Positions 41,660-61,274 of a stretch of 64,000 nt of DNA are shown one piece after another (position 1 is the stretch's first letter; each line of letters begins with the position of its first letter). The position numbers and the translations under genes are program-made. Location: NCBI RefSeq assembly GCF_007741495.1, contig NZ_CP036262.1:6634001-6698000 (forward strand). Reading direction: 5' to 3'. A model generated the notes under the pieces. The model saw only the letters and a program-made list of their open reading frames with translations. It was not told where the DNA came from and did no database searches. This stretch comes from Roseimaritima multifibrata. Its GTDB lineage: Bacteria; Planctomycetota; Planctomycetia; Pirellulales; Pirellulaceae.

Positions 41660-41739
41660 ATAACAGCACAGCAATACAACAAATTAGACGCGGAAAAAGA
41701 ACCAGCATTGACAGTTGCCCAATCAGAAACGTCCGCCAG

Positions 41740-46412: not shown

Positions 46413-47366
46413 TCACGACTTGCGTTGCCCTAATTTCCAAGCTTTAGCCAGAAGCACTTTAGTCCTTAACTTCCAATCCCAATCGCCTGCTTGCACATAT
46501 GGCAGTACATCCAACATCGATTCAAAATCTCGAATCTCGAACAAACTATGCAACAATGCTGCAGCACGACGCTCACACTCCTTCCTTGTGGGCTCTAAAA
46601 AGCGGGCTGGAACAAAGTTACGGAGGAACAGGTCTCTTAAGATCCACCAATCACCGTAAGCGACACGAGGATAATTCGCAGAAAAATTATTTCCATCTCG
46701 ATAAATCGTAACTTTAGTCTCTGCCGCGCCTACAACTTGTGTGCGGGACGCCAGACGCTTCGTCAAATGAGCGTCTTCAGCGGGCATCCGAGCAACACGA
46801 TCATCAATTCCTCCGATCTCTTCGTAAACGGTCCGCTTGAATGCCATACAAGACTGAAACACCGGACTGAACTCCAGCAGTGGCAAATAGGCATCCATTC
46901 CCAAATTAATCGCAAACCCATCGTCTGTAAGATACGCCCGCCACGAAGCCGGTGCACCCATCAGCTTATCCGCCAGCTCAATCGATCCTCCCTCACGACA
47001 TATTCGGAAATTAGAGAACAGCAAACCAGCGGAAGTGAATCGATTACGCAATTGCTGCAACGTTTCAATAAAAGAAAGATCCCACTCATCGTCACTATCA
47101 AGCGGACAGACCCACTCAGCACTTGTTGCCTCAATCCCCAACTTCCTGGCCGCGGCGGGTCCACTGTTCTCGATGCGCAAGACCTTTATTTTCGATGAGA
47201 ATTGACGCGCAACTTCAGCCGTCTGATCGTCCGATCCATCATCGACGACCACAACCTCAGATGGTACGTGAGGCTGCGCAAATACGGATTGAAGCGCGCG
47301 AGGCAAGACCAGCTCTCGATTGTAGGCCGGAACAACCACTGCGTAATCAAATTTAGCACTCCTCAT
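46413..47366 (-). CDS. Family 2 glycosyltransferase
   Basis: A 317-residue GT-A enzyme. The N-terminal YAVVVPAYNRELVLPRALQSV (about 7-27), VVVDDGSDDQTAEVAR near 40-55 and CPLDSDDEW near 87-95 (the DxD that binds the metal and nucleotide sugar) are complete. After the catalytic part there is the usual GIDDR..AEDAHLTKRLA stretch. ATG 47366 is chosen because it starts just before the first strand. The next upstream gene is another GT2, 68 bases away. Confidence 0.9.
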   Translation of the reverse strand: MRSAKFDYAVVVPAYNRELVLPRALQSVFAQPHVPSEVVVVDDGSDDQTAEVARQFSSKIKVLRIENSGPAAARKLGIEATSAEWVCPLDSDDEWDLSFIETLQQLRNRFTSAGLLFSNFRICREGGSIELADKLMGAPASWRAYLTDDGFAINLGMDAYLPLLEFSPVFQSCMAFKRTVYEEIGGIDDRVARMPAEDAHLTKRLASRTQVVGAAETKVTIYRDGNNFSANYPRVAYGDWWILRDLFLRNFVPARFLEPTRKECERRAAALLHSLFEIRDFESMLDVLPYVQAGDWDWKLRTKVLLAKAWKLGQRKS

Positions 47367-47434
47367 CCACTGCCTCCCTTCCCATTGCAACCGAGGTACT
47401 GCTGGCAACAAACATCTCAGCCCACCTTACTCGT

Positions 47435-48355
47435 CTATCGCCCCAGACTTTCAGAAACACCCCACCAGAGCCGTCGCGGCAACCCGGGCCAAAGACCGTA
47501 ACATAGCCCAGTTCGCAAAATTCGCATGAGTAGTGGCCAGTTACCCCTTCGCACCAACAACGGAGCGACCGCCGGCCAATCGTTCCGCACTCTTTGCCGC
47601 CATGCCTCCAAAGAGACACCACCGTCGCTACGCAACTTAGAATAAACTTCCGCTGCAGACGCCAATGCGTAAGCTCGCTGGATCGTTGCTCCGTATGTCG
47701 CCGAAATCCCAGCCCCCCCTTCTTGATAAAAGGCAGTGACACTCGCCACATAAACAAAGGGTCCACATACTGCCATCCTCATCTGCAAATCATAGTCATT
47801 TGCGGCTGCGTAAAATTGGCGGTCACGGATCTGCTTCAACAACAGCGATCGATAACTGACCAAATTCATTGCTGAAGCCAAGGGCCATCCTTGAGTCAAC
47901 ATACGCTGCAACGCATCTTGGACAACAAAATACTCACCTTGCTTGAGGTCAGCAAACCCAGGTGCAACACGCGGCTCGGTCAATTTCATGTCCCAAGTCA
48001 TCCCGTATGCAAGAACACATTCCGGATTCTGCAACAATGCATCGACTAGATCCGCTATACGATTGGGAGGCATTGGAGGATCATCTGCATCCGCAAACGC
48101 AACTAGATCGCAATCGGATGCTTCAACGCCCCGATATCGCGCCACCGCTGCACCTCGATTACCCTGCCGAATCACCCGCACTTCCGCACCGAAAGACCCA
48201 AGGGCCTCGACGGAACCATCCGTTGAACCGTCATCCACCACAACAATCTGATCCGGAGGGCGAGTCTGCCGCAGCGCAGACTGCACCGTACCCAGCAGTG
48301 CCTGCCCTGCGTTGTAAGTAGGAATGACCAGCGAAACGGCTTGCTCGTCGTTCAT
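47435..48355 (-). CDS. Family 2 glycosyltransferase
   Basis: A 306-residue GT-A enzyme: VSLVIPTYNAGQALLGTVQSAL at 7-28, IVVVDDGSTDGSVEAL near 37-52, and the donor-binding AFADADDPP near 85-93. The C-terminal quarter has hydrophobic and Trp-rich stretches (VAPLLVRRGNWPLLMRIL, GLWPGLPRRLWWG) that may rest on the membrane. Direction and spacing place it in the minus-strand glycan operon. Confidence 0.9.
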   Translation of the reverse strand: MNDEQAVSLVIPTYNAGQALLGTVQSALRQTRPPDQIVVVDDGSTDGSVEALGSFGAEVRVIRQGNRGAAVARYRGVEASDCDLVAFADADDPPMPPNRIADLVDALLQNPECVLAYGMTWDMKLTEPRVAPGFADLKQGEYFVVQDALQRMLTQGWPLASAMNLVSYRSLLLKQIRDRQFYAAANDYDLQMRMAVCGPFVYVASVTAFYQEGGAGISATYGATIQRAYALASAAEVYSKLRSDGGVSLEAWRQRVRNDWPAVAPLLVRRGNWPLLMRILRTGLCYGLWPGLPRRLWWGVSESLGR

Positions 48356-48417
48356 AAAATCGTCACGAATTCGCAGACATCAACACGCAGGAAATACAAC
48401 TCACCATTCCTTGAAAG

Positions 48418-49581
48418 CTAAACCGAAGCATCACTTAAAAAAGTCCCAGCAATCTCGTCCTGAACTTCAACAAGGTCCTCCCCATTGGCCGCCGCCTCCA
48501 AAACACGCTGCAGTCGAGCAATACTTTGATGCATAGTAAAACGGCCAGCGACGCGAACACGAGCTTGCCGCCCGAGTCGACCGGCTAACTCTGGATCGCT
48601 CAAAACTCGCTCCATCGACTCCGCCATCTGATCGACGTCCCCTTCATCACAGAGAAGCCCGGTTTCGTTATCAACAACCACATCTGGAATACCCGCATGC
48701 CTTGTGGCAACAACGGGCAAACCGGACATCCCTGCCTCCAAAACAGCAACTGGAGTTCCCTCGCTGTCGCCATTGGATGCGACAACCGAATGTTGAACAA
48801 AAGCACGAACCGAATGCATTTCCCGCTGCACAACGTTGTGCGACTGTGCACCAAGAAATCGAACCGAACTCTGCAACCCCATCGCCTGAACAAGTCGCTG
48901 GCACACCGGGAGCAAGGGCCCATCGCCAATGAAGGTAAGCTGTGCATCCGCAACCTGCTGTTTCGCGCGGCTGAATGCGAGCAGTGTAAGATAGGGAGCC
49001 TTCTTCTCAACAAAACGCCCCACTGCGAGCAAGTGAGGAGGTGCATCGCCAGGCGCTGCGCGAGAAAATTTTGTAGGATCAACGCCGTAAGGTGAATAGA
49101 TCAACTTCTCCTGCGGGCACCCAAGTTCCAGCAAGCGTTCATGCATGGCCCACGAGACGGCAATCACCACCGCGGATTCCGAGAAGACGCCTTTATAGAA
49201 ATTAGCATCAAATTCGGTGGAACTTGCGTCATAGCCATGAAAATGGGTCACCAGCGGAACACTCAGGCGGTGACACGCCGAGGTAACTTTCGCGGCGACC
49301 GATCCATATTCTGCGAGAACTACATCGGCGCGTCCATTCTGGATACCGCGGACTACTCCATCTTCAATTTCCTTGGTCCACGGGGCGCGTTGCACCACCC
49401 TCTTTATTTTTCGCCAACCTCGCGGAACAAGACGCTGCGACAGGGCCACCTTACCATCAAGGGCAGGCCGTCCATTCAAAAAATGAACGACACCGGTAAC
49501 TTCTCGCAAATGTTCCGCATGCGCCGCAATAAAAGTTTCGGAGACCGCACCAACAGATGGTTGGATAATAACAATATTCAC
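48418..49581 (-). CDS. Family 4 glycosyltransferase
   Basis: A 387-residue GT-B enzyme. It starts with IVIIQPSVGAVSETFIAAH, the SETFI motif common in colanic-acid type GT4 proteins. The donor half shows LLAVGRFVEKKAPYLTLLAFS near 185-205, LTFIGDGPLLPVCQ near 215-228, and the E-x7-E motif in EGTPVAVLEAGMSGLPVVATRHAG near 288-311. SRAKQQV and the preceding EKK form agree with the WcaL/AmsK-like group. Confidence 0.92.
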   Translation of the reverse strand: MNIVIIQPSVGAVSETFIAAHAEHLREVTGVVHFLNGRPALDGKVALSQRLVPRGWRKIKRVVQRAPWTKEIEDGVVRGIQNGRADVVLAEYGSVAAKVTSACHRLSVPLVTHFHGYDASSTEFDANFYKGVFSESAVVIAVSWAMHERLLELGCPQEKLIYSPYGVDPTKFSRAAPGDAPPHLLAVGRFVEKKAPYLTLLAFSRAKQQVADAQLTFIGDGPLLPVCQRLVQAMGLQSSVRFLGAQSHNVVQREMHSVRAFVQHSVVASNGDSEGTPVAVLEAGMSGLPVVATRHAGIPDVVVDNETGLLCDEGDVDQMAESMERVLSDPELAGRLGRQARVRVAGRFTMHQSIARLQRVLEAAANGEDLVEVQDEIAGTFLSDASV

Positions 49582-49696
49582 TGATTTAAACTAGCGTTTG
49601 CATGGAACTACAACCCGGCAAATGTTAAACCATCGGTTTATACATCTCTGCCCTATCAAATTATCACGCAGGCCAACGCGTGATGTCTCCCCCTGA

Positions 49697-50401
49697 CTAA
49701 ACGCTGCTCGCGACCAGAACATACACACAAGCATCTTTATCTCGCCACTCCTTCGAACATTTTTTATCTGCACGCTCAATCCTTCGCTGCATCGACCACA
49801 AGAAAGCCTTACGCAATTTTGCAGGTACTGAAGTGATCGTCGCATCTTGCCAAAGTTGGAGTGCGGTAGAAGCGGGTCCCATCATACCTTCGAAATCGAG
49901 GATCTCGTATCCAGCTTCAGAAACCACCTTCCTTAACCCATCGCAAGTCCATCGCCAGTAATCCGTCGGATCAGGGTGATATTTCCAAACACCATGAGTA
50001 GAAAGAAATAGCTTGCCTCCCGGCTTCAGCACGCGTTTCGCTTCAGCGAGATAGCTAACGGGATCGATGACATGCTCTAAAACTTGCGAAGATAAGACAT
50101 AATCAACGGATTTCGCTTCAACCTGCATACGGCCCAGCTCATCTATAAGACCATCTGCTAGATCATTTCCTGCCAAATCGAACCCTCTATATTTTTTCAC
50201 ATGGGGCTCAAAAATCGGCCGATACGGCATATTGCCACAACCGAAGTCAATCAAATCGCCAGATCCTTGATCAACGTGATTAAGCGCAAATCGCTCGTAC
50301 AAAAGACGTAAACAGGTCAAATGCCAATAAAGCCTATGTGAGCGAGAGGGGTAAAGCCGCTCTCCCCGATGCCCCACAGGATTACTCATACCATTTTCCA
50401 T
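49697..50401 (-). CDS. Class I SAM-dependent methyltransferase
   Basis: A 234-residue methyltransferase. Motif I DLIDFGCGNMPYRPIF lies near 49-64, YRGFDLAGN (motif II area) near 71-79, SVDYVLSSQVLEHVIDP near 97-113 and LKPGGKLFLSTHG near 124-136, as in Methyltransf_11. In this place it probably methylates a sugar or glycan end; the acceptor is unknown. The start may be ATG 50401 or 50389. Confidence 0.88.
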   Translation of the reverse strand: MENGMSNPVGHRGERLYPSRSHRLYWHLTCLRLLYERFALNHVDQGSGDLIDFGCGNMPYRPIFEPHVKKYRGFDLAGNDLADGLIDELGRMQVEAKSVDYVLSSQVLEHVIDPVSYLAEAKRVLKPGGKLFLSTHGVWKYHPDPTDYWRWTCDGLRKVVSEAGYEILDFEGMMGPASTALQLWQDATITSVPAKLRKAFLWSMQRRIERADKKCSKEWRDKDACVYVLVASSV

Positions 50402-50462
50402 TACGCAATCAACTTCAGAATAGATTTAAACGAAATCGTTTTCGCCAAGCGTTTATACAACG

Positions 50463-51692
50463 CTAGCGAACCCCGATCATAGACGCGAACTTTGAAAGCC
50501 AGCGTTGACGACCACCACCTACCACAATCCTCTTATCCTCAGGCCCCAATTTTTCATATGCGTCTGGAAGCACAAATGTCTTCGGTGCCACAAATCGGTC
50601 CTTAAATTCCCCCCTGTCCGTCCATAGCTTGCGAAACAATCGCTCCCACCTATCAGCCGATTCCGCAAGCGAGAAGCCTGCCTTAATGTGCTTAATCGCG
50701 TTATGCGATAATCGCTTACGAAACTCTATATCATCAGCCAAACGCTGCACTGCCGCCATGAAGGACTCGTTCCGATCATTCACCAAGATACCAGTCTCCC
50801 CATCCACCACTAACTCTCGCAATCCGCCTTCAATATTCAAACACAAGGGAACCAAACCGACGGCCATTGAATCCATTACCGCGCCCGGAACCCCCTCGTA
50901 ATCCGACAGTAGCACGAAGACATTTCCCCACCGCATCTCATCCTGCACGCTATCTGGCTCAACAAACCCAGTGAAATGAACTCGACCACCTAGCCCAGCT
51001 TTCTTAAAAAGCGTCTCAACGTCCTGTCGCTTGCTACCATCACCGATAAATTTAACCTCAGCATCACTCCTATGCTGCAAAACCGCACGCAGGGCTTTGG
51101 CCAAATCCATAACCCTCTTCTGGTTGTCTTCCATCCGCCCCGCAAACACAAATCGCAACGGCCCGAGTGGGTCAGCCGTTAGGGCGGGAACCTCCACTCC
51201 GTGACAAATATCCACAACATGCGTGCGGTCAGGCCGCCAACCTCGAACGATGTCTCCCAACTCTCGCCCCATGCAGAACATCCCGGAGACAGCCCACTCA
51301 TCTTGAAATTTACAGAAACGTTCCGCCATTCCCCAATTAAAATCATCATCGCTTAGATGCCCCACAATCGTAGGACGACCCGAATCACGAAAATACCGCC
51401 CTGCATAGCAACCTGCGACCGAAATATTGGGGACATAAAGATCCGGCTGTGCGTCCTCCAACGCATCAAGAACAAACCGAGTGCGAGCCTGCACCAGCGG
51501 CTCGTACTCTTTTGCAATTACCTTGATACCATTCGAGACAAGGAATTCATCTGAAGCCAGAGTACCGCGGAACAGCACGATGGCTGTAACATCGTACCCA
51601 CGGCGCTTCAACTCAGGCAACAACCGCAAAGCGTTAATGCGCGGACCTGCACAATAACCAGGCCAATCATAGAATGTGTATGCAATATGCAT
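50463..51692 (-). CDS. Family 4 glycosyltransferase
   Basis: A 409-residue GT-B enzyme. The N-terminal FYDWPGYCAGPRINALRLLPEL contains the GP-rich acceptor loop. The donor half has FVFAGRMEDNQKRVMDLAKAL near 177-197, VKFIGDGSKRQDVETLF near 210-226 and the E-x7-E stretch LSDYEGVPGAVMDSMAVGLVPLCLN near 260-284. ATG 51692 is chosen since upstream 11 codons are polar and the family starts with a beta strand at this Met. Confidence 0.9.
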   Translation of the reverse strand: MHIAYTFYDWPGYCAGPRINALRLLPELKRRGYDVTAIVLFRGTLASDEFLVSNGIKVIAKEYEPLVQARTRFVLDALEDAQPDLYVPNISVAGCYAGRYFRDSGRPTIVGHLSDDDFNWGMAERFCKFQDEWAVSGMFCMGRELGDIVRGWRPDRTHVVDICHGVEVPALTADPLGPLRFVFAGRMEDNQKRVMDLAKALRAVLQHRSDAEVKFIGDGSKRQDVETLFKKAGLGGRVHFTGFVEPDSVQDEMRWGNVFVLLSDYEGVPGAVMDSMAVGLVPLCLNIEGGLRELVVDGETGILVNDRNESFMAAVQRLADDIEFRKRLSHNAIKHIKAGFSLAESADRWERLFRKLWTDRGEFKDRFVAPKTFVLPDAYEKLGPEDKRIVVGGGRQRWLSKFASMIGVR

Positions 51693-51757
51693 TTGCTCTA
51701 TATTTTCTCGCAATTTATTACACAAACAACAAAACAGACAATTCTAAGGTATCAGCA

Positions 51758-53080
51758 CTAGATCAAAGAACAATCTTGAACAAGATCAATCAAAAATTCG
51801 CGAAATCGCAAAGACCTAAACTCGGGAACATTCGACGAATGCCGATTGTTTGCGTTTGACAAAATCGACTCAACATCGTTCCAAGCCAAATCGACACTTT
51901 GCTTTACAGTTAAATGCTCTAGGCGAATATCCTTATCCCCTGCCAGTTGAATTACGGGAATTCCATTAAACAAGGCCTCTACCAGAACCGACGAAGCCGT
52001 TCCCACAACAATACGACTATTCGCCAGATCGTTTTCCAATGTGTCTTTTCTAAGAATCACATCGAAATCGCAGAAAAAATCGGCAACGACACTCAAATAT
52101 TTCTCTGAAGGATGAACCCGCAACTTAACCAACCATCCGTGGTCGCAAAACATTCTTAAGACATGGGACATTTCTGAATGATAAATCTCTCGCTCGCGTA
52201 CAGACATTCTTGAAATGGGATTAACCAAGACTAGCGCCTGCCTAAATCGAGGGAGTGGACATCTGCACACAAGCGATTTTGGAAAACCAAAACTCACAAC
52301 CCGGCAACGATCACTGGGTAGCCCAAAGCATCTTATGCGACTCGCAAGCTGGTCGGACCACACGACCTCGACAGACGCTATCACTGGAGAAACCGAGATC
52401 AAATTGGGACACTGCGTGTAACCGTGGGCAACTTCAACCACCGGAATGCCACATTGCTCGGCGGCAGCACAGATAATTCGACCAGCGACATGATGTGCGT
52501 CATGCACAACAAGCAAAGCAATCTTTTCCTGCGACAAGAAATTGCGAACAGAAAAAACATTTTTGCGAACTGCGCGGTTGAACTGCAACATGAATCGCTC
52601 ATTCTTCAGCAATGAACTAAACTCTTCATGAGTTGAAATCCTCCCCAGCAGAGAGAACGCCGTCCCTTTTGTGGCAACCTCCTGAAGGGAAAGTGTCACG
52701 CCCAGTGGCAAGGAACATTCAGTAAAACGCTCTAATCCTTCTTCGTCCAAAAAATCAACAACCTCCGTTTCTATTACTGGCGTCCTCGACAACGCTACTT
52801 GATAACGCAGTTTGTTCTTAGCGAAAAACCTATTCGACACCTTCCAAACCAACCAACGACCCATTTTTTTCAATTGAGATCTCAACCGAAAATCAGCGTA
52901 ATTGTTCCTTAGCACTTGATTGACATGCGGTGCACCAGAAAGCGACATACGCACTTCGTTCTCAAGTGCAAGAACTGCATAAGGAAAACGCGTCTTCCTC
53001 TCCTGGAAAAACCCACGTACTTCCTGGTCAAAAATGACCGAGCACTCAAATGGATCAATCATAGATCCGTCTTTTCGCAT
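51758..53080 (-). CDS. Capsule/polysialyl-type glycosyltransferase-like protein
   Basis: A 440-residue GT-B fold protein that I place with capsule polysaccharide synthase/polysialyltransferase-like families. Visible: LVVHDAHHVAGRIICAAAEQCGIPVVEVAHGY near 195-226, LVLVNPISRMSVRERE near 290-305, LVKLRVHPSEKYL near 323-335 (HP..k pattern) and SRIVVGTASSVLVEALFNGIPVIQL near 363-387 (S/T-x-x-E). Such enzymes use CMP-sialate-like or glycerol-phosphate donors in some families. The exact donor is open. The gene is followed upstream by a long gene-free region. Confidence 0.65.
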   Translation of the reverse strand: MRKDGSMIDPFECSVIFDQEVRGFFQERKTRFPYAVLALENEVRMSLSGAPHVNQVLRNNYADFRLRSQLKKMGRWLVWKVSNRFFAKNKLRYQVALSRTPVIETEVVDFLDEEGLERFTECSLPLGVTLSLQEVATKGTAFSLLGRISTHEEFSSLLKNERFMLQFNRAVRKNVFSVRNFLSQEKIALLVVHDAHHVAGRIICAAAEQCGIPVVEVAHGYTQCPNLISVSPVIASVEVVWSDQLASRIRCFGLPSDRCRVVSFGFPKSLVCRCPLPRFRQALVLVNPISRMSVREREIYHSEMSHVLRMFCDHGWLVKLRVHPSEKYLSVVADFFCDFDVILRKDTLENDLANSRIVVGTASSVLVEALFNGIPVIQLAGDKDIRLEHLTVKQSVDLAWNDVESILSNANNRHSSNVPEFRSLRFREFLIDLVQDCSLI

Positions 53081-54791
53081 TCTTCACTCTCTAAGCAGTA
53101 TTTAGAGCACAAATTAATATAAGTTACGGCGAGTCCCGAAAAACACGTGATTGCATAAAAAACAGATGCCAGATTCCGAGGCGGTGGCAACGCCGAAAAA
53201 CAAACTCAAAAGAAATTCGCCCACAAGAAATGCAATGAAACTCCGTACTCCGGTCACCTTCCGCATCCATCGCAATCTCGACTATCCAGCTAGCCAAAAA
53301 CGACATCAATACAACAAAAAGTCGCATGCATCTTTCCGCAAATCAATCACAAAAAACCGACAACCAGCGACAGCGCCAAGTTGCAATCACATCTCACTTC
53401 TGCGCCACCAACCTTGGAATGTCCTACCGCACATCGAGCACCATCGATTTATACAAACAATCCACGAAAAGAAAACAGTATCGTGCCCACGCAAACCCAC
53501 GCTTCTCATCTCGCCTGGCAACCAAACTTACCGCATGGTTACTTCATGGAAACCACGCGACAATATCACTCAGACGCCTGCTTTTCAGGAAAACCAGTGC
53601 TCTAACCGACGCGTCCCCCTTCCCGCCGAACTGGAACGGGAAGTGCGATGGTTAACCAAGTTCGGGACGAAGTCGCGAAGAACACCCATACCATTCGTCG
53701 CACCACCTTGCAAGAATGCAATTACGACCGTAATTAAAATCCACACCCAAACTCCGATGCATGCGATCGACTTCCCAGTGCTTGTAAAACGACGTAGAAA
53801 AACCGCAAACAATTGCCTGCCGCCCTTACACAGTAACGTACTGTCGCGATTTGCTTACCGCCATTAATGACTTTAGGAATGGCCCGACCGATCCACTGGA
53901 CGCCAAACGGTTTTTCACAAATCCAAGAAAGCTCACGTGAACAGGAAAGACGAAATAACTTCGCCCTCAAAGCTGGCAGCAATGCACTTATAGCTTCCAT
54001 TGAAACGCAAGCCTTGACCAACCAACATCTTGATATATCCACCCCAAAGGACACCAAGAAGTTTTTAATGCCTATTTCTCACACCAAAAAGGCAGCCCCT
54101 CAACTACTACAATACCTTGCAATAGATTTCACACAAATAAGCGATATGATCACACTACGAAGATCCATCATTTTGAGCTCCTGAGGAAACGCTGCATATT
54201 AACTTGACGCTCGAACCTACAGTGTACAGTGACCCGACCAAGCACGATGCCGTTGCCCAACCACAGTAAATACGCAATGCACCCAACTTCTCGGCATCAG
54301 TCCGTCAACATGAGCGAAGATCGAGCGACCAGCGCTACGCTCACTAAAGAGCCGACCGACGTAACCGCTCAGGCCTGCTGGAAGTTAGCAGGCCTGAGCA
54401 AGGACAGAATTCGGCCGACAGTGCCATGCGATAGCACGGCGTGAGGAACATGAATGACCTTCACCCACCAGCTCCTATCTTTACCCAACCACCGAATGCC
54501 GCTTGAATAACCACCACAGAAACCACTAAAGCCACAAACTTAAAAAAACGCGACCAAAGCGTGCGGGCTGGATACACATGCCTTTTAAAAACGCAAAGTG
54601 TTAGCACCTGCCTGCGAAACATCAACAAAGCCGCCCAGGGAAAAACATTCAACCTGCCTTAACAAACCTTTTCATTGACGCTCCTCCCTCACGCCGAACA
54701 CCCGCGAACACCTATACCCGAATTTTAAAGCCATGACCGTGGTGGCCTTTTCCATCACCACACCAGGAAACATAAGTATAAGTCTTCACCT
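53081..54791. other. 1.7-kb region without convincing genes
   Basis: The longest gene-free stretch in the locus. It is A/T-rich. Short minus-strand frames include hydrophobic pieces (VWVWILITVVIAFLQGG near 53735-53685; MRLFVVLMSFLASWIVEIA near 53327-53270) that could be scraps of a membrane protein, but stops and frame changes interrupt them and I cannot assign a family. A plus-strand frame of 238 codons (53151-53867) is Lys/Arg/Pro/Thr-rich throughout and not protein-like. No repeat family of the window is found here. Confidence 0.55.
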
Positions 54792-55811
54792 CTACTTAAA
54801 ATCGCCCCAATCTAAAGGCTCGTAGGCGACTAGATCTCGAGACGCAACCTTTCCAACTACTTTAAAGTACTCCGACGCTGAAATCCCACGTAACGGGCGT
54901 AGCGTAGTCAAAAGATCTTCCGAGACAACAGTCCCTGCAAGACAATCCCGCCGAAGATAAACAGCCCTACGAAACTCAGCGATGCGATCCGATGTTTCTA
55001 CCTCAAACACCGGCACCTTAACTGCCCTGCCCAACATCTCCTGACGCCGACGTAGATAAACAACAAAATCGTTGAGTTCTTCTTTAGTGTGGGCAAAATG
55101 ATGATCACGAAAATCACGGCTATTGTCATCGGTAAAATGAGTCTCGATAACTCTCGCTCCGCGTTCTACCGCAACCTTAACCGCTACATTACCCAGAGTG
55201 TGATCACTGTACCCAACCACAACCTGAGGCGGCAACGCTGCTGCCAACGCATCAATCGCTGCTAAATTGGCGTACTCGTCTCGTGGGTCACCATACATAG
55301 CCACACAATGCATTACACACAGACCTCCACTCTCCACAATCGCAGGATTGACGTCACGAACAAATGCGACCGCTGCGAGGACCTCCTCCATGTCAGCCAT
55401 CGCAGTCGCAATACAGATCGGCTTACCAGTTTCGGCCATAGGCTTGAGCAAGCGATAGTTCGTGAGATCACCTGAACCAATTTTGTGAACCGCAATCAGA
55501 GGATCCAAAAACCTGAACGCCCCCATGTCCCACACGGAAGCCATAAAGTCAACTTCAACCTCAACGCACATCTCAGCAAGCTCACGATACTGCTCGAGCG
55601 ACAACGTGAACTTGCCAAAATGCTGATGCCGCTCCGGATCCTGCAACTTATTCACAATTTTGTCAGGACTATACGCCTGGAACTTCACAGCGTCTGCACC
55701 AGCTTCTGCAGCATCCAGCAACAATTTTCTCGCAAAATCCATGTCTCCTTCGTGGTTACCACCAATCTCAGCTATAACATAAGGACGATCAATTTCAAGA
55801 AAAGAATTCAT
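54792..55811 (-). CDS. Nonulosonic acid (sialic acid-type) synthase, NeuB family
   Basis: A 339-residue enzyme with the NeuB layout: TIM-barrel (YVIAEIGGNHEGDMDFARKL at 11-30, DAVKFQAYSPDKIV near 39-52, HKIGSGDLTNYRLLK near 108-122, VGYSDHTLGN near 195-204, HFTDDNSRDFRDHHFA near 221-236) and a C-terminal SAF/antifreeze-like domain (FRRAVYLRRDC.., then PLRGISASEY). It condenses phosphoenolpyruvate with a 6-carbon sugar to give a 9-carbon 2-keto acid such as Neu5Ac, legionaminate, pseudaminate or Kdn. I cannot tell which. The TTG-free start at ATG 55811 is clear. No NeuC-type epimerase/hydrolase is in the window. Confidence 0.9.
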   Translation of the reverse strand: MNSFLEIDRPYVIAEIGGNHEGDMDFARKLLLDAAEAGADAVKFQAYSPDKIVNKLQDPERHQHFGKFTLSLEQYRELAEMCVEVEVDFMASVWDMGAFRFLDPLIAVHKIGSGDLTNYRLLKPMAETGKPICIATAMADMEEVLAAVAFVRDVNPAIVESGGLCVMHCVAMYGDPRDEYANLAAIDALAAALPPQVVVGYSDHTLGNVAVKVAVERGARVIETHFTDDNSRDFRDHHFAHTKEELNDFVVYLRRRQEMLGRAVKVPVFEVETSDRIAEFRRAVYLRRDCLAGTVVSEDLLTTLRPLRGISASEYFKVVGKVASRDLVAYEPLDWGDFK

Positions 55812-55849
55812 ATTGCAAAAATTTCGCTATCTGAAAGTGAAAAAAACAA

Positions 55850-56473
55850 TTAGCGATTTCTCAAAACGCGAGCAGGAACACCTGCAACGACATCAAAAGC
55901 ACTAACATTTTTAGTTACAACAGCATTACTACCAACAACCCCACCTTGCTCAATCCGAATTCCCGGCAGAACGGTCGAGTGGGCACCAATCCAGACATCC
56001 TCACCAATAAAAATTGGCGAATGGCTATAGCCCTGATCCTGTATATTTGCATTTCGCTCATGCCGATGCATACTTGTCTGCAGATACACGAAGCCGGACA
56101 CCAGCGAACCCGAACCAACCGTAATTGAATCACCACCGTTCAAGACAGAATAGAAACCAACTCGAACTCGCTTCCCCAACCGAACCATACTCGCATTCCC
56201 CGCGATAATGCGCACGCCGCGATCGAGCCGGACATCATCATCAATAATCACATGAGCATTTCCAAAAGCCCGAATCTCAACATCACGTCGAATCTCAACC
56301 CTATCTCCAATCTCAATTTTTCCACCGTCTCGAACCAATAACTTTACGCCCCTCTCGCATTTCAGCTTCTTACCAATGGAAAAGCATTTACCGCGTAAAA
56401 GAATTCGCAGCATCAATCCGCGCGAATGTGCAAGCCTGTCACACGTGGCTATAAACAGACGGTAGAAAATCAT
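55850..56473 (-). CDS. Left-handed beta-helix (hexapeptide) acyltransferase
   Basis: A 207-residue protein with hexapeptide repeats through most of its length (IEIGDRVEIRRDVEIRAFG, VIIDDDVRLDRGVRIIAG) and the C-terminal catalytic-type block IFIGEDVWIGAHSTVLPGIRIEQGGVVGSNAVVTKNV..VVAGVPARVLR, as in WcaF/NodL/maltose O-acetyltransferases. It would O- or N-acetylate a sugar. A hydrophobic/Arg-rich N-terminus (about 1-30) precedes the helix. It lies 9 bases downstream of the GT2-NeuA-like gene. Confidence 0.88.
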   Translation of the reverse strand: MIFYRLFIATCDRLAHSRGLMLRILLRGKCFSIGKKLKCERGVKLLVRDGGKIEIGDRVEIRRDVEIRAFGNAHVIIDDDVRLDRGVRIIAGNASMVRLGKRVRVGFYSVLNGGDSITVGSGSLVSGFVYLQTSMHRHERNANIQDQGYSHSPIFIGEDVWIGAHSTVLPGIRIEQGGVVGSNAVVTKNVSAFDVVAGVPARVLRNR

Positions 56474-56482
56474 TTCCTTGCC

Positions 56483-57874
56483 CTACAATTCCTTAAGGAG
56501 ATGCAACTGCATCGCAAGCTCGACTATCGGAAGATCTGCCATTGCCTTTATTTGATAATTAAATTCTCGCGGCATTACTATATGCCCTAGCCGCCCCTTA
56601 TACAGGTCTTCACAACTCACGAAATCCCTCCACATCGCATGAACAGCACCATTACCTACATAGAGAGACTCTCGCTCATAACGCAATTTAGAAATCATCC
56701 CTGGATTCAACGGCACCAAGCCATTTTCACCATGAACGAAATGCAGCTCTATGTCTTCACAAGTGCTAACGACATTTTCAACGTCATACAACAAAAGAGT
56801 ATCGACAGCCTTCTGAATATGCTCATGAGTCCTCAAAGGAGAATGCACACTCAAAGCGACAACAATATCCGGAAAGATTTGATGCGCCATCTCTAAGCGA
56901 GAAACAGCAGAAGAAACAATCTCTGAGAGTCTCGACCTTGGTCCAGACAAATCTGGGTCTCGCACTTCAGCAAGAACACCTTCCTTGCCACTACAATGAT
57001 CTACAACGTCGTCATCATCAGTGTACACGTAAATCTTTTCGAACAACCTTGACTCGACTGCTGCATCCAGCGTGTGATCAATCAAAGGCTTGCCGCCCAC
57101 GTTTTGCAAAACTATGCCCGGAAGATCTCTGTATGAATTTTTCGCGGGCACAACAGCAACAGACCTAGGCCGTACTGCTCCCTCTAGCCTTGCAGCCAAC
57201 ACTCTTTTAATCTTTTGTCGAGACTCAAGCATCTTCCGCTGATCACGCGACATCGACTCGCTGTGCTGCCGATAATAAAAAAGAGGCGTCGACACATTCG
57301 CGACACCAAAACGATGAAGCACTTTAATCCAAAGCTCGTGACCATCCTGTGAATCATGCTGCACATCATACCCCCCCACACTTTTCAATATACGGCGCCG
57401 CACCATCGTGCATGCACCATGAGCGGGCAAATCGAGCACTTTCGCTTCGACCCCCACTTTCTTTCTTTGCTCAACACCGAGGACCTCACCGTTTTCACCT
57501 ACGTATATCCAATTCGGATACACCAAACCAACACTTTCGTTTCCATCCAAAAAAGCAGCTAAAACTAACAATGCATTTTCATCAAAATAATCATCAGCAT
57601 CAAGCCGTATTACATACTCTCCACATGCGGACTGAAGAACCTCATTCGCACTAGATCTTAATCCGACTGGCACCGAGTGCCGAATGAAATGCAGATTTTC
57701 ATTTCCCGCAACATACTTCCTGGCAATTTGTTCAGTATTGTCAGTTGAGCCGTCGTCAACAATCCAAAGCTCCCACGAACATAACGTTTGCGCAATCACG
57801 CTTTCGATAGCCTGAGCGAGAAAACGACCGTAATTATGAGAGGTGATATATACCGTCACTTTTTTACGATTCAT
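56483..57874 (-). CDS. Fusion of a family 2 glycosyltransferase and a NeuA-like cytidylyltransferase
   Basis: A 463-residue two-domain protein. Residues 1-230 are a GT2 domain (VTVYITSHNYGRFLAQAIESV, WIVDDGSTDNTEQIARKY, IRLDADDYFDENALLVLAAF with the DxD, and QDGHELWIKVLHRFG). From about 236 a second domain begins with RSVAVVPAKNSYRDLPGIVLQNVGGKPLIDHTLDAAVESRLFEKIYVYTDD, the order of CMP-acylneuraminate synthetases (PAR.GSK..p.KN....gkPLI..ti..a..s..f....v.tdd), and continues with ALSVHSPLRTHEHIQKAVD in place of LQPTSPLR. Several active-site residues of NeuA (the GSKR loop, Gln before PTSPLR) are changed, so activity is not certain. It overlaps the upstream acyltransferase gene by 4 bases. Confidence 0.82.
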   Translation of the reverse strand: MNRKKVTVYITSHNYGRFLAQAIESVIAQTLCSWELWIVDDGSTDNTEQIARKYVAGNENLHFIRHSVPVGLRSSANEVLQSACGEYVIRLDADDYFDENALLVLAAFLDGNESVGLVYPNWIYVGENGEVLGVEQRKKVGVEAKVLDLPAHGACTMVRRRILKSVGGYDVQHDSQDGHELWIKVLHRFGVANVSTPLFYYRQHSESMSRDQRKMLESRQKIKRVLAARLEGAVRPRSVAVVPAKNSYRDLPGIVLQNVGGKPLIDHTLDAAVESRLFEKIYVYTDDDDVVDHCSGKEGVLAEVRDPDLSGPRSRLSEIVSSAVSRLEMAHQIFPDIVVALSVHSPLRTHEHIQKAVDTLLLYDVENVVSTCEDIELHFVHGENGLVPLNPGMISKLRYERESLYVGNGAVHAMWRDFVSCEDLYKGRLGHIVMPREFNYQIKAMADLPIVELAMQLHLLKEL

Positions 57875-58455
57875 GACCGCCCCTCCATTCGTTCACCAAC
57901 AACTTTTGCGGGACTACCCGAAACAATCGCATAATCCGGAACATCACTAGACACTACAGCACCAGCGGAAACTACGGCCCCCTCACCGATTGAGACTCCT
58001 TTTAACACGACGGCGCCAACACCAATCCAAACATCGTCCGCGACTGCGATAGGGGCAGCAGACATTGGCTGCTCGCGTATAATTTGACCACGCCTAATTC
58101 CGTGATTCGCGTCGACAAAATAGCAAAAAGGTGCGATCAAACAGTTTTTGCCGATACTAATCTGAGATGTAGCAAACAAATAAGTTTGATACCCCACAGT
58201 TGTCCAGTCACCTATCTCGATTTCTGCGTTTTCATGTGCAGGACAAATACGCACTCCTTCTTTCAATATGACATTGTTTCCCAACCGAACCCTTTCAGGA
58301 TGACGCCACACACTAACATCTTGCTCGACAAAGACTCCTGCACCAAAAGCCCCTAAACGACGCAGCAACCTCCACTGGTGATACCGCTGCAGAAAACTTC
58401 TGCTCTGATATTTCCTAACGCCGCTCTCTCGACGCACAACATTTTTACTGTCCAC
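57871..58455 (-). CDS. Left-handed beta-helix (hexapeptide) acyltransferase
   Basis: A 194-residue protein, basic N-terminus (about 1-30) followed by hexapeptide repeats (VRLGNNVILKEGVRIC, IEIGDWTTVGYQTYLF, ISIGKNCLIAPFCYFVDANHGI) and the end block IAVADDVWIGVGAVVLKGVSIGEGAVVSAGAVVSSDV..IVSGSPAKVVGER. The DANHGI segment has the catalytic-type His. It fits the sugar O-acetyltransferase group. It overlaps the GT2-NeuA-like gene by 4 bases (ATGA) and the SpsF-like gene by 11, so the three are translated from one message. Confidence 0.88.
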   Translation of the reverse strand: MDSKNVVRRESGVRKYQSRSFLQRYHQWRLLRRLGAFGAGVFVEQDVSVWRHPERVRLGNNVILKEGVRICPAHENAEIEIGDWTTVGYQTYLFATSQISIGKNCLIAPFCYFVDANHGIRRGQIIREQPMSAAPIAVADDVWIGVGAVVLKGVSIGEGAVVSAGAVVSSDVPDYAIVSGSPAKVVGERMEGRS

Positions 58456-59134
58456 AACTATGGCTAAGCTTCACGAGTTCCTCGACTGTATAACTCCAAT
58501 GAGGACGTGTCATCACAGAAAGCATTCGTGACACCTTCGCGAAGTCAATTCCATCATCGACGGCGAATCGAATCGCCGAATAGTCCACCGCAGATTTAAT
58601 ATTCTCTATTTGAAATTCGGCCGAATTACGATAAAGATACTGCGTAACATGCTCCCTATCACTCGGGATGCCAGGGCGACTAAGTACACACTCAATCGCT
58701 TTCCTAGAAACCAATTCAACTGACTGCCCCACTGGAAAACTACGCGGGAAAATATTCGAAACCAAATCTACCTGTGTCGATCGGTAACGCTCTGCAGCCA
58801 GTGAAAACAATTCAAGCGGCACAAACGGACTATCTCCGTTTACACGAAAAGCTGCATCAGCCCCCGATCGCTTAACCGCCATGAGAAAACGAGTCGCTAC
58901 GTCCTCCAATGGCCCCTGGACAACCGAAACGCTACTCTCCTTGGCAAAATCGACCAGCGGAAAATCTGAAGCTGTATCACTAGTCGCTAAGAAAACCTCT
59001 CCGATTGCCTCTGATTGACGAAGTGTATCCAACAGATACGCCAAAAGCGGCCTACCAGCCACTTGCCGCAATCCCTTTCCGGGCAACCTTACTGAAGTCA
59101 TTCTTGCAAGAACAACAGCGGGAAACTTTTTCAT
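58445..59134 (-). CDS. SpsF-type cytidylyltransferase
   Basis: A 229-residue nucleotidyltransferase that resembles SpsF / CMP-sugar synthetases of spore-coat and flagellin glycosylation loci: AVVLARMTSVRLPGKGLRQVAGRPLLAYLLD at 5-35 (nucleotide-binding loop), EVFLATSDTASDFPLVDFA, VVQGPLEDVATRFLMA and FRVNGDSPFVPLELF (metal and sugar site) and SDREHVTQYLYRN. It would activate a 2-keto acid sugar as its CMP derivative, which fits the NeuB-type gene nearby; B. subtilis pairs SpsE (NeuB-like) with SpsF in the same way. ATG 59134 lies 7 bases after the Wzt stop and starts at the first strand; an upstream start at 59197 would overlap Wzt. Confidence 0.85.
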   Translation of the reverse strand: MKKFPAVVLARMTSVRLPGKGLRQVAGRPLLAYLLDTLRQSEAIGEVFLATSDTASDFPLVDFAKESSVSVVQGPLEDVATRFLMAVKRSGADAAFRVNGDSPFVPLELFSLAAERYRSTQVDLVSNIFPRSFPVGQSVELVSRKAIECVLSRPGIPSDREHVTQYLYRNSAEFQIENIKSAVDYSAIRFAVDDGIDFAKVSRMLSVMTRPHWSYTVEELVKLSHSCGQ

Positions 59135-59141
59135 ATCACAC

Positions 59142-60380
59142 TCACACGGAAAGTGGCGACACCTTAAAACACTTGGCGAGCGGTAAGTACGGTGCACTAT
59201 TTAACGGGCGAGCCCCCGACAAAACCTCAAAGTTTCCGCCTGCGCTTATACTCACCGGCCTATCAATCGTTTTGCGACGACCAATCACCAAACTCCATGA
59301 GTACACTCCGTCGTGCAAATGCAATGGTTCTACAGAGAACAAGATCTCTTGAGTCCCTTCAAGCAACTCAAACTCTATTCCATTTCTTGTGCTACTCCAG
59401 CACATGACGGGCCTTTGCGAAACATCAAAAGCGGTAAAAAACATTTCTGCACCTGCAAAAACATCTTGTGTATTTAACAAAACTCGCACCTTCAACTCTC
59501 CACCATACTCGACAACACTAGACTCTAAAATTACCTCTGCAGAACTAACCGGGTACTGCAGTGATTTCGCATCCTTACTGCTCACTGAGCACCCCTGATG
59601 ATCTTGAGCGACTGCCCTGTTGTATGCCTCAACTCCGACAGACACTTCACCAAACAACTCAAATCGCCCCTTTTGCATTACCCCAACTGAGTTTGCACAT
59701 TGCGATATATTCTCCATCGAATGGGACACAAGAATCACTGCAGCGTTGGACATTAGACTGGAGATCTTTTTATAACAACGATTTCGGAACCCCACATCTC
59801 CCACCGCCAATACTTCATCAAGAATCAACACATCCGGGTGCATCAGTATAACTGCAGTGGAAAACCCCAATCTCACCTGCATTCCGGAACTATAATTTTT
59901 CACCGGCGTGTCAATAAAATCTCGCAAGCCGGCAAACTCAACGATCTCGTCCAAACGATTGCTAGTTTCACGCTTAGACATTCCCAATATTGAACCATTC
60001 ACATAGACATTCTCTCGGCCAGTTAAGACAGGATTAAATCCTGCACCGAGCGCAATAAGTGCGCCTACGCGTCCTCGCATTTGAATTACACCAACATCCG
60101 GCTTAATCAAGCCATTTAGCATTTTCAACAGTGTTGTCTTGCCAGCCCCATTCCCTCCTATCAGACCTAAACACTGTCCGCGTTTTACTTCGAAAGTAAT
60201 TCCTTGGTTTGCCCAGAACTCTCCCTCTCTTAAAGACACACTCGTCGAATCACTTATACTTGCACCACCAACTAAATCTTTCGCAGAGTCCTTTACTCCA
60301 TACCAAAGACTTTTTTTAAGATCCCGACAGAATTTTTTACTGACGTTTTCAGCACGAACCAAAATATCTTTATCACTCAT
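59142..60380 (-). CDS. Wzt-type polysaccharide ABC exporter ATPase
   Basis: A 412-residue ATPase: Walker A GLIGGNGAGKTTLLKML near 72-88, signature YSSGMQVRLGF near 164-174, Walker B VLILDEVLAVGD near 185-196 and VSHSMEN with the switch His near 218-224. The region before Walker A is long (an insert with SLWYGVKDSAKDL), as usual for Wzt/TagH. Residues from about 275 form a Wzt_C-like beta-sandwich (EVILESSVVEYGGELKVRVLL..), which in relatives recognises the finished glycan. It works with the permease encoded 3 bases upstream and pumps lipid-linked polysaccharide across the inner membrane. Confidence 0.93.
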   Translation of the reverse strand: MSDKDILVRAENVSKKFCRDLKKSLWYGVKDSAKDLVGGASISDSTSVSLREGEFWANQGITFEVKRGQCLGLIGGNGAGKTTLLKMLNGLIKPDVGVIQMRGRVGALIALGAGFNPVLTGRENVYVNGSILGMSKRETSNRLDEIVEFAGLRDFIDTPVKNYSSGMQVRLGFSTAVILMHPDVLILDEVLAVGDVGFRNRCYKKISSLMSNAAVILVSHSMENISQCANSVGVMQKGRFELFGEVSVGVEAYNRAVAQDHQGCSVSSKDAKSLQYPVSSAEVILESSVVEYGGELKVRVLLNTQDVFAGAEMFFTAFDVSQRPVMCWSSTRNGIEFELLEGTQEILFSVEPLHLHDGVYSWSLVIGRRKTIDRPVSISAGGNFEVLSGARPLNSAPYLPLAKCFKVSPLSV

Positions 60381-60383
60381 TGC

Positions 60384-61274
60384 TTACATCCCCATCCGAG
60401 CGACTAAGTGAGGCATCACAACCCTCAGGCTTAACAAACATACGAATATCACTAAGCAACAGCATGGCAATACTGCCAACATCGCCCGCAGGTGCTCCAT
60501 CCCTCCGGACACCAACTGCTCTCGTGCACTCATCAAAATTGGAGACACCGGATTCCAAGCAATAACCGCGGATGCCGCCCCCTCCGATGGAGGCGGATAC
60601 ACCACCGGTGCCATGTACATCAGAAACCCCAAGATGACCGGAACCGCTTGCTGGATGTCGCCATACAAACTACCAAGAGGTACCAATAGCAATCCGCAAG
60701 CGGTTCCCAGCACCATCAGCGATAGGATCGTGATCGGCAAGAAGACAATTTCCCACGGTGGCACAACCTGAAAAAAGAAAAAGACGGGAATTAGGGTTAC
60801 TGCGTAAATCAAAAACTCGAAGATCGCACGCGCCGTCCCGGCCGCGATAAATGCCTCCGGCGGGACCTTCAACTTCATAAACACCGGTTTCCCAGCGTTA
60901 AATGACACCAATGGACTTTGAACTAATTTGATAAAGGTTTGCCAAAACGTGCTGCCGATGATCACAAACAACGGATAAGGCATCCCGGTGTCGGTTATCT
61001 CAATGACTTTTTGACCGTTCAAGAACATCCACACCGCGGTGGTCATCACGGGTGGCAGAAACAGCCAGACGTAACCCAGCAAGCTCTGGCGAAATTGGGC
61101 TTTGAGATCGCGCTGAAACAGAATCCAGATCAGCTCACGACTACGCCACAAATCTCCAAACACCTCGCGTACCAACTTGCCGGGATTGGCGAGCGGCGAT
61201 TCGGGAGAGTAGACAACAACAGGCAGTTCACTTGCCTGCGACGTGTATTCAATTGAAGTTGGCTGTTCGGTCAT
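60384..61274 (-). CDS. Wzm-type polysaccharide ABC exporter permease
   Basis: A 296-residue ABC-2 permease. LVREVFGDLWRSRELIWILFQRDLKAQFRQSLLGYVWLFLPPVMTTAVWMF (about 34-84) is the amphipathic interface helix plus first membrane helix seen in Wzm/TagG, and six hydrophobic segments follow; PVVYPPPSEGAASAVIAWNPVSPILMSAREQL is the conserved loop near 220-251. With Wzt it forms the export channel for the glycan. The gene lies directly before wzt. Its base composition is more GC-rich than the genes to its left. Confidence 0.93.
   Translation of the reverse strand: MTEQPTSIEYTSQASELPVVVYSPESPLANPGKLVREVFGDLWRSRELIWILFQRDLKAQFRQSLLGYVWLFLPPVMTTAVWMFLNGQKVIEITDTGMPYPLFVIIGSTFWQTFIKLVQSPLVSFNAGKPVFMKLKVPPEAFIAAGTARAIFEFLIYAVTLIPVFFFFQVVPPWEIVFLPITILSLMVLGTACGLLLVPLGSLYGDIQQAVPVILGFLMYMAPVVYPPPSEGAASAVIAWNPVSPILMSAREQLVSGGMEHLRAMLAVLPCCCLVIFVCLLSLRVVMPHLVARMGM

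Follow-up and report, generated by a model that had tools for sequence, protein, structure and literature searches.

A nonulosonate-type gene module without precursor genes in Roseimaritima multifibrata and its relatives in distant genomes

Which sugar acid can a bacterium make from a set of genes that holds a synthase and an activating enzyme and no gene for the precursor? Predictions of nonulosonic acids commonly rest on synthase phylogeny together with precursor genes, and homology alone would misname such a precursor-less module, with a synthase in a clade of its own, as sialic acid synthesis. The question is raised by a stretch of 64,000 nucleotides from the planctomycete Roseimaritima multifibrata (contig NZ_CP036262.1; hereafter the window), in which five minus-strand genes are tightly packed at positions 54792-59134, neighbours overlapping by at most 11 bp or lying at most 38 bp apart. 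Read 5' to 3', they encode an SpsF-type cytidylyltransferase, a hexapeptide acyltransferase (AT2), a family 2 glycosyltransferase (GT2) fused to a NeuA-like domain, a second hexapeptide acyltransferase (AT1) and a NeuB-type synthase (Table 1). The original prediction, drawn from the DNA alone, named these same parts; all of them are in place with matches in Pfam, which confirms the observation, and the interpretation given with it is partly supported. We give an even chance to the reading that these genes serve to produce and use a nonulosonate-like sugar with decorations, a cytidine monophosphate (CMP)-ulosonate derived from a housekeeping sugar; the enzyme classes are read from the sequence, and from them we infer what the substrate and product are, in which order the steps run and how the sugar is linked.

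The recurrence of the module is beyond chance. With a scan of the genomes of 84,980 species, we obtained at least 80 loci with synthase matches, and among the matches listed 15 loci (L044-L058) stand apart, their synthases being 35-45% identical to that of the window. Their hosts belong to Bacteroidota, Gammaproteobacteria, Pelagibacteraceae and SAR86, with a Gemmatimonadetes, a Planctomycetaceae and one unassigned bin. By locus labels that rest on BLAST score thresholds of our choosing, SpsF and the GT2 fusion are each found in 12 of these 15 loci and AT2 in 11; the fusions of L046 and L055 lie under the thresholds and were added to the count from separate inspection, L049 and L056 are short contigs, and the fusion of L048's genome is on another contig (L174). 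The slot between synthase and fusion is occupied by a methyltransferase in six loci and by AT1 in four, and the commonest order is AT2, SpsF, NeuB, methyltransferase or AT1, GT2 fusion; the window holds the AT1 version with its genes in a different order. The AT1 of the window is 42-52% identical to those in this slot (L047, L053, L055, L058), and its AT2 is 38-53% identical to the AT2 of ten related loci, the eleventh (L046) being assigned by score only. The best NCBIfam match of AT2 is the WcaF family, at 80.7 bits under a cut-off of 192. A relative of SpsF is present in all 16 genomes with a synthase of the window type, host included, the best per genome scoring 79-511 bits.

Among 294 genomes of the phylum (host included, E 1e-40), the top-scoring synthase match, leaving the host aside, has 39% identity, and no listed match exceeds 40%. 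In the class of Marivirga the window clade appears at E 1e-100 in one of 295 genomes, that of Marivirga itself, so that the module is rare in this class. Plasmid matches are all below 60% identity (the 15 listed of 96 below 40%) and the three phage matches reach at most 31%. A literature search, made mostly in titles and abstract openings, returned no account of the module, nor of any comparable fusion between GT2 and NeuA.

Several loci show arrangements of their own. In Thalassotalea loyana, SpsF and NeuB form one frame of 569 residues (L047 9278-10987), and a Pelagibacteraceae genome carries the reverse NeuB-SpsF fusion of 587 residues (L045 12356-14119). A CutC-like gene lies inside one module, between NeuB and AT1 (L058 8781-9515; NF008603, 210 bits for a cut-off of 311). 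A GT2 fusion is also found in a haloarchaeon, Halomicroarcula, near CMP-sialic acid synthetase (CMAS) and NeuB genes (L074 7100-8575).

The synthase is a NeuB-type enzyme, exceeding the cut-offs of both of its domains (Table 1), and it remains well under the equivalog cut-offs for N-acetylneuraminate synthase (TIGR03569, 228.6 bits against 399.65) and pseudaminic acid synthase (TIGR03586, 180.4 bits against 340.25). Its structure model (predicted local distance difference test, pLDDT, 90.9) displays the NeuB fold with an SAF domain and finds its best matches in the PDB among NeuB, PseI and SpsE, the synthases of 3-deoxy-D-arabino-heptulosonate 7-phosphate (DAHP) and 3-deoxy-D-manno-octulosonate 8-phosphate (Kdo8P) being far more distant. 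Using the residue numbers of Neisseria meningitidis NeuB, and what we take to be their roles towards phosphoenolpyruvate (PEP), metal and sugar, we find 12 of the 16 active-site positions checked retained (E25, K53, Q55, K129, S132, Y186, S213, H215, E234, H236, D247 and R314). Of the others, T110 is replaced by Ser and N184 by Ala, N74 belongs to a loop that is deleted, and the position of Phe288 is ambiguous. The arginine equivalent to Arg314 is present in 16 of 16 synthases of the window type.

Placed against Neu, legionaminic acid (Leg), pseudaminic acid (Pse) and Kdn synthases, as the original prediction had proposed, the window synthase falls in a distinct clade. A careful tree was built from 60 of the 116 rows behind two quick trees; there, the 16 rows of the window type form one clade (support 100/99), apart from the Neu, Pse and SpsE references, from the synthases of Leg loci and from the synthase beside a Kdn-9-phosphatase-type gene. 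A wider group (100/95) unites this clade with a second, SpsF-associated clade and with the NeuBs of the GT2-fusion loci L062, L074 and L079. The two quick trees, the second with six long-branch rows removed (L087_1153, L123_9989, L045_12356, L121_11830, L109_18515, L116_9962) and five added, support the window group at 99 and 100 and its join with the second clade at 86-94 and 79; the join to this sister clade is thus less sure than the group itself. The 100/95 branch also separates the window synthase from those of loci with LegB/C/G/H/PtmE and from SpsE, and the enzyme deviates at positions where 20 of 20 Leg-cluster synthases agree. The clade sits on a long stem, with clade-specific changes near the sugar site.

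Two arginines hint at the kind of substrate that may be bound. Arg61 and Arg235 are each found in 16 of 16 sequences of the window clade, and in 24 and 22, respectively, of the 25 of the sister clade; both are found in 37 of the 41 rows when the two clades are pooled, and in none of the 75 other rows. Arg235 immediately precedes the aspartate equivalent to NeuB Asp247, itself conserved in 115 of 116 rows. Such a pattern would suit a negatively charged substrate, for instance a sugar phosphate or a uronic acid.

On the side of activation, SpsF is best read as the working cytidylyltransferase of the module. Its best PDB chain is 6oew (E 7e-23), and the Arg, Ser and Lys columns of the CMAS motif are complete in 39 of 39 SpsF sequences chosen by similarity to that of the window, itself included, as in CMP-ulosonate synthetases. 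The ATG at 59134 fits better as its start than the GTG at 59197, because the latter would overlap with Wzt. The fusion protein comprises a GT2 domain (residues 7-164) and a CTP_transf_3 domain (residues 240-370), and its model (pLDDT 88.5) matches both GT-A enzymes and CMP-sialic acid synthetases (6ifd, TMt 0.80-0.84; 1eyr, 0.80). In the GT2 half, D41, D92, D94 and D95 are invariant in 17 of 17 sequences, in keeping with membership of the family. In the NeuA-like half, the motif Lys, conserved in all 39 SpsF sequences and in 21 of 21 alignable Leg-type CMAS (one of 22 being truncated), is present in none of the 17 and the Ser in two, the window having neither; the motif Arg is kept in 14 and is a Lys in the window. 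The two cytidylyltransferase-type domains of the original prediction thus stand as matches of fold and family and not as two working enzymes, the fused domain having lost the Lys in 17 of 17 and the Ser in 15 of 17. A CMAS by fold and Pfam, it is best read as a non-catalytic, CMP-sugar-binding or docking module.

Genes for a precursor are not seen around these enzymes. The frames of the window contain no NeuC-/PseG-type hydrolase and no LegB-type dehydratase over our BLAST thresholds, and none is among 19 neighbouring proteins scanned with Pfam, in agreement with the remark of the original prediction that no NeuC or LegB precursor gene was in view. A search of up to 10 kb on each side of every locus (the whole window for the host), again with BLAST thresholds that we chose, detected a NeuC/PseG-type hydrolase in 0 of 16 window-type loci and 0 of 25 sister-clade loci, against 32 of 61 other loci; L045, L051, L057 and L062, with two NeuBs each, are counted in two groups. 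In four genomes (G294, G305, G306 and G308, those of loci L044, L055, L056 and L058), the module synthase is the only NeuB beyond matches of DAHP-synthase size, and neither NeuC nor PseG is found over cut-off; each single absence is weak since these genomes are drafts. Together, the absences argue against a precursor made by NeuC/PseG hydrolases.

Some candidates were rejected on inspection. The sub-cut-off NeuC matches in the genomes of L050, L053, L056 and L058 are closer to WecB than to the NeuC of the host, and the sub-cut-off PseG match in the genome of L055 lies, by eye, inside a MurG-like gene. The PseG match of Thalassotalea loyana (93.6 bits, below cut-off) belongs to another cluster, one that has a NeuB and an SpsF of its own.

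The following route would reconcile these elements. The synthase would join PEP to a housekeeping sugar, probably negatively charged, such as a hexose phosphate, to give a 2-keto-3-deoxy acid, and with such a substrate a nucleoside diphosphate (NDP)-sugar hydrolase pathway would not be needed. AT2 and AT1 would acylate the acid, which a methyltransferase would decorate in other genomes, and SpsF would form the CMP-sugar. The GT2 fusion would attach either this sugar or its neighbouring residue to a glycan that Wzm/Wzt exports, with the dead NeuA-like half of the protein serving for binding or docking. The sialic-acid-like sugar of the original prediction, perhaps with an unknown precursor, is in line with the nonulosonate-type synthase, the cytidylyltransferase of the module, the co-travelling acyltransferases and the lack of a precursor gene; the N-acylation that it allowed for is unsupported, since no recognised enzyme of the module produces an amine. 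Going further, the module might stand for a path to nonulosonates that has not been described before: its new synthase clade would act directly on an anionic housekeeping sugar without any NDP-sugar hydrolase, and a dead CMP-sugar synthetase would have taken on the handling of the donor for a GT2 that depends on CMP-ulosonates. This is a bolder proposal, which we hold only tentatively and think rather unlikely as a whole. With its few, cloneable genes, the module is a means to discover a new sugar acid, and its GT2, joined to a dead cytidylyltransferase, allows a test of whether GT2 enzymes can use CMP-ulosonates.

Several observations weigh against a CMP-ulosonate made from a housekeeping sugar. 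The four genomes in which the module synthase is alone are drafts, where absences may be gaps, and NeuC is over cut-off in six of the 16 genomes, host included, and PseG in two others. Loci L048, L049 and L053 have no SpsF of their own, a relative lying elsewhere in each of these genomes (that of L048 weak, at 82 bits, and in another cluster), AT2 is missing in 4 of 15 loci, and no phosphatase is among the module genes. A contact of Arg61 and Arg235 with the substrate is putative, and the deletion of spsF in Bacillus subtilis was uncomplemented, according to the excerpted text of PMC7439481. Precursor genes, not detected near the module loci, do exist elsewhere in the host, which has a separate Leg-type pathway about 740 kb from the window (L004 6817-15567, genome 5.945-5.954 Mb) with a 4,6-dehydratase, an aminotransferase, a NeuD-type acetyltransferase, a NeuC-type hydrolase (451 bits), a PtmE-type nucleotidyltransferase, a second NeuB (5.948 Mb) and a CMAS, the names being assigned by eye except for NeuC. 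A third PF03102 match in the host genome is by eye an AroF-type DAHP synthase and not a NeuB. With this complete legionaminic-acid-type set at hand, and with SpsE and SpsF of B. subtilis belonging to the legionaminic acid pathway (PMC7439481, in part), the window synthase could draw its substrate from the distant locus and make a second, differently acylated legionaminic acid. We consider this unlikely: the Leg-type locus has its own NeuB and CMAS, which makes the window module a second, separate synthase and cytidylyltransferase, the window enzyme stands outside the Leg/SpsE group and differs at the positions fixed there, and the four related drafts hold the module with no NeuC or PseG over cut-off.

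A 9-phosphate pathway to Kdn, or to Neu5Ac, from mannose-6-phosphate (or ManNAc-6-phosphate) and PEP, followed by a phosphatase and then SpsF, is equally doubtful in our eyes. The reported route to Kdn starts from mannose-6-phosphate and PEP (PMC7845648, in part), and UDP-GlcNAc is given as the branch point for nonulosonic acids except Kdn (PMC8053191, in part). Such a pathway would spare a dedicated precursor gene for Kdn, and a phosphate might be held by the arginine pair specific to the clades. Marivirga sericea has a gene of the Kdn-9-phosphatase type (NF058599, 261 bits, cut-off 180) adjoining another NeuB, with SpsF next, in what is likely a Kdn locus (L212 7717-10719); this NeuB, L212_8697, is not grouped with the window clade. 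The module itself lacks a phosphatase: NF058599 is over cut-off in one of the 16 genomes, there beside this different synthase, and reaches at best 118 bits in the host, under this cut-off, while NanE is over cut-off in one of 16 and barely so (28.8 bits, cut-off 27). Phosphatases of the KdsC family are over cut-off in 12 of 16 genomes, which leaves room for a shared, generic enzyme; a motif scan of the loci placed a KdsC-type phosphatase near the module in one of them (L054). That the product is not nine-carbon at all, the NeuB-like enzyme condensing PEP with a shorter or other aldose to a 7- or 8-carbon 3-deoxy-ulosonic acid, would agree with the long stem, the lack of precursor genes and the changes near the sugar site; the NeuB-type fold with SAF, the conserved Arg314 equivalent and the distance to DAHP and Kdo8P synthases make it the least probable of these explanations, and a very improbable one.

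The surroundings of the module are those of a polysaccharide locus, since carbamoyl-, sulfo- and several glycosyltransferase genes lie around it. The window spans 6.634-6.698 Mb of a 7.2-Mb single-contig genome. The best NCBIfam matches of the Wzt-like protein are ATP-binding subunits of teichoic acid/galactan export, with scores under their cut-offs, and among the downstream glycan genes 47435-48355 and 48418-49581 were assigned by eye only. The 1.7 kb (53081-54791) that separate the synthase from the next glycan gene contain no repeats and no long open reading frame with a recognisable product. The five module genes have a GC content of 46-49% for 53% in the window, and Wzt and 51758-53080 are equally low (45%), so that low GC tells little about acquisition of the module alone. 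The glycan locus also encodes an 884-residue protein with no Pfam match at E 1e-4 (39020-41674).

Table 1. Genes of the module and of its flanks, in window coordinates.
Feature	Coordinates	Strand	Domain matches
SpsF-type cytidylyltransferase, likely CMP-ulosonate synthetase	58445..59134	-	PF02348 (CTP_transf_3) 85.9 bits
AT2, hexapeptide acyltransferase (WcaF/WbbJ-like)	57871..58455	-	Hexapep 54 bits
GT2 glycosyltransferase fused to NeuA-like domain without catalytic motif	56483..57874	-	GT2 99 bits, CTP_transf_3 50 bits
AT1, hexapeptide acyltransferase	55850..56473	-	Hexapep 45 bits
NeuB-type 2-keto-3-deoxy acid synthase, uncharacterised clade	54792..55811	-	PF03102 193 bits (cut-off 22.1), SAF 30.1 bits (cut-off 21)
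Wzt-like ATP-binding subunit of polysaccharide ABC exporter, directly upstream	59142..60380	-	ABC_tran 78.7 bits
Wzm-like exporter permease	60384..61274	-	ABC2_membrane 42.8 bits
Glycan genes further downstream: two GT2, two GT4-type, one methyltransferase and a protein (51758-53080) with no match in Pfam	46413..53080	-	

Among known systems, the sps operon of B. subtilis is alike in that a surface-glycan operon pairs a NeuB-type synthase with an SpsF-type cytidylyltransferase: in the excerpted text of PMC7439481, spsE is required for legionaminic acid to be made and spsF for it to be transferred onto the spore surface, SpsF being proposed as the CMP step. In a Vibrio cluster, an SpsF-like domain was proposed to replace NeuA (PMC7371886, in part). 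These two cases make up the literature support for the proposed function of the module. The sps operon differs by its own precursor enzymes, SpsM, SpsC, SpsD and SpsG, and the same excerpts mention no GT2 fusion (PMC7439481). SpsE itself lies outside the window clade.

N. meningitidis NeuB/SiaC (1xuu) and Campylobacter jejuni PseI (8h2c) have in common with the window synthase their fold and most NeuB active-site residues; the window enzyme, 25-26% identical to them in structural alignments, differs by a shorter substrate loop, the additional Arg61 and Arg235 and its separate clade. The bifunctional CgtA-NeuA of Campylobacter, which our literature search did not confirm, has a glycosyltransferase at the N-terminus and a NeuA domain at the C-terminus, both halves being active; the fusion of the window has the same domain order, and its NeuA-like half has lost the motif.

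The Kdn-9-phosphate synthase that works with a Kdn-9-phosphatase, of the Bacteroides thetaiotaomicron type, resembles the module in needing no NDP-sugar hydrolase, and differs in that the module has no phosphatase and that the Marivirga synthase adjacent to NF058599 belongs to another clade. A widespread cluster of the order SpsF-Gfo/Idh-DegT-SDR-GNAT-NeuB-AsnB-amidotransferase (L028 3155-14120; also L059, L068, L072, L073 and L099) was noticed on the way. The sister-clade clusters (for example L028, L068 and L073) carry amination and amidination genes, of which the window module has none; the points of resemblance are the nearest synthases, an association with SpsF in 18 of 25 loci, no NeuC/PseG-type hydrolase detected nearby, and the shared pair of Arg61 and Arg235.

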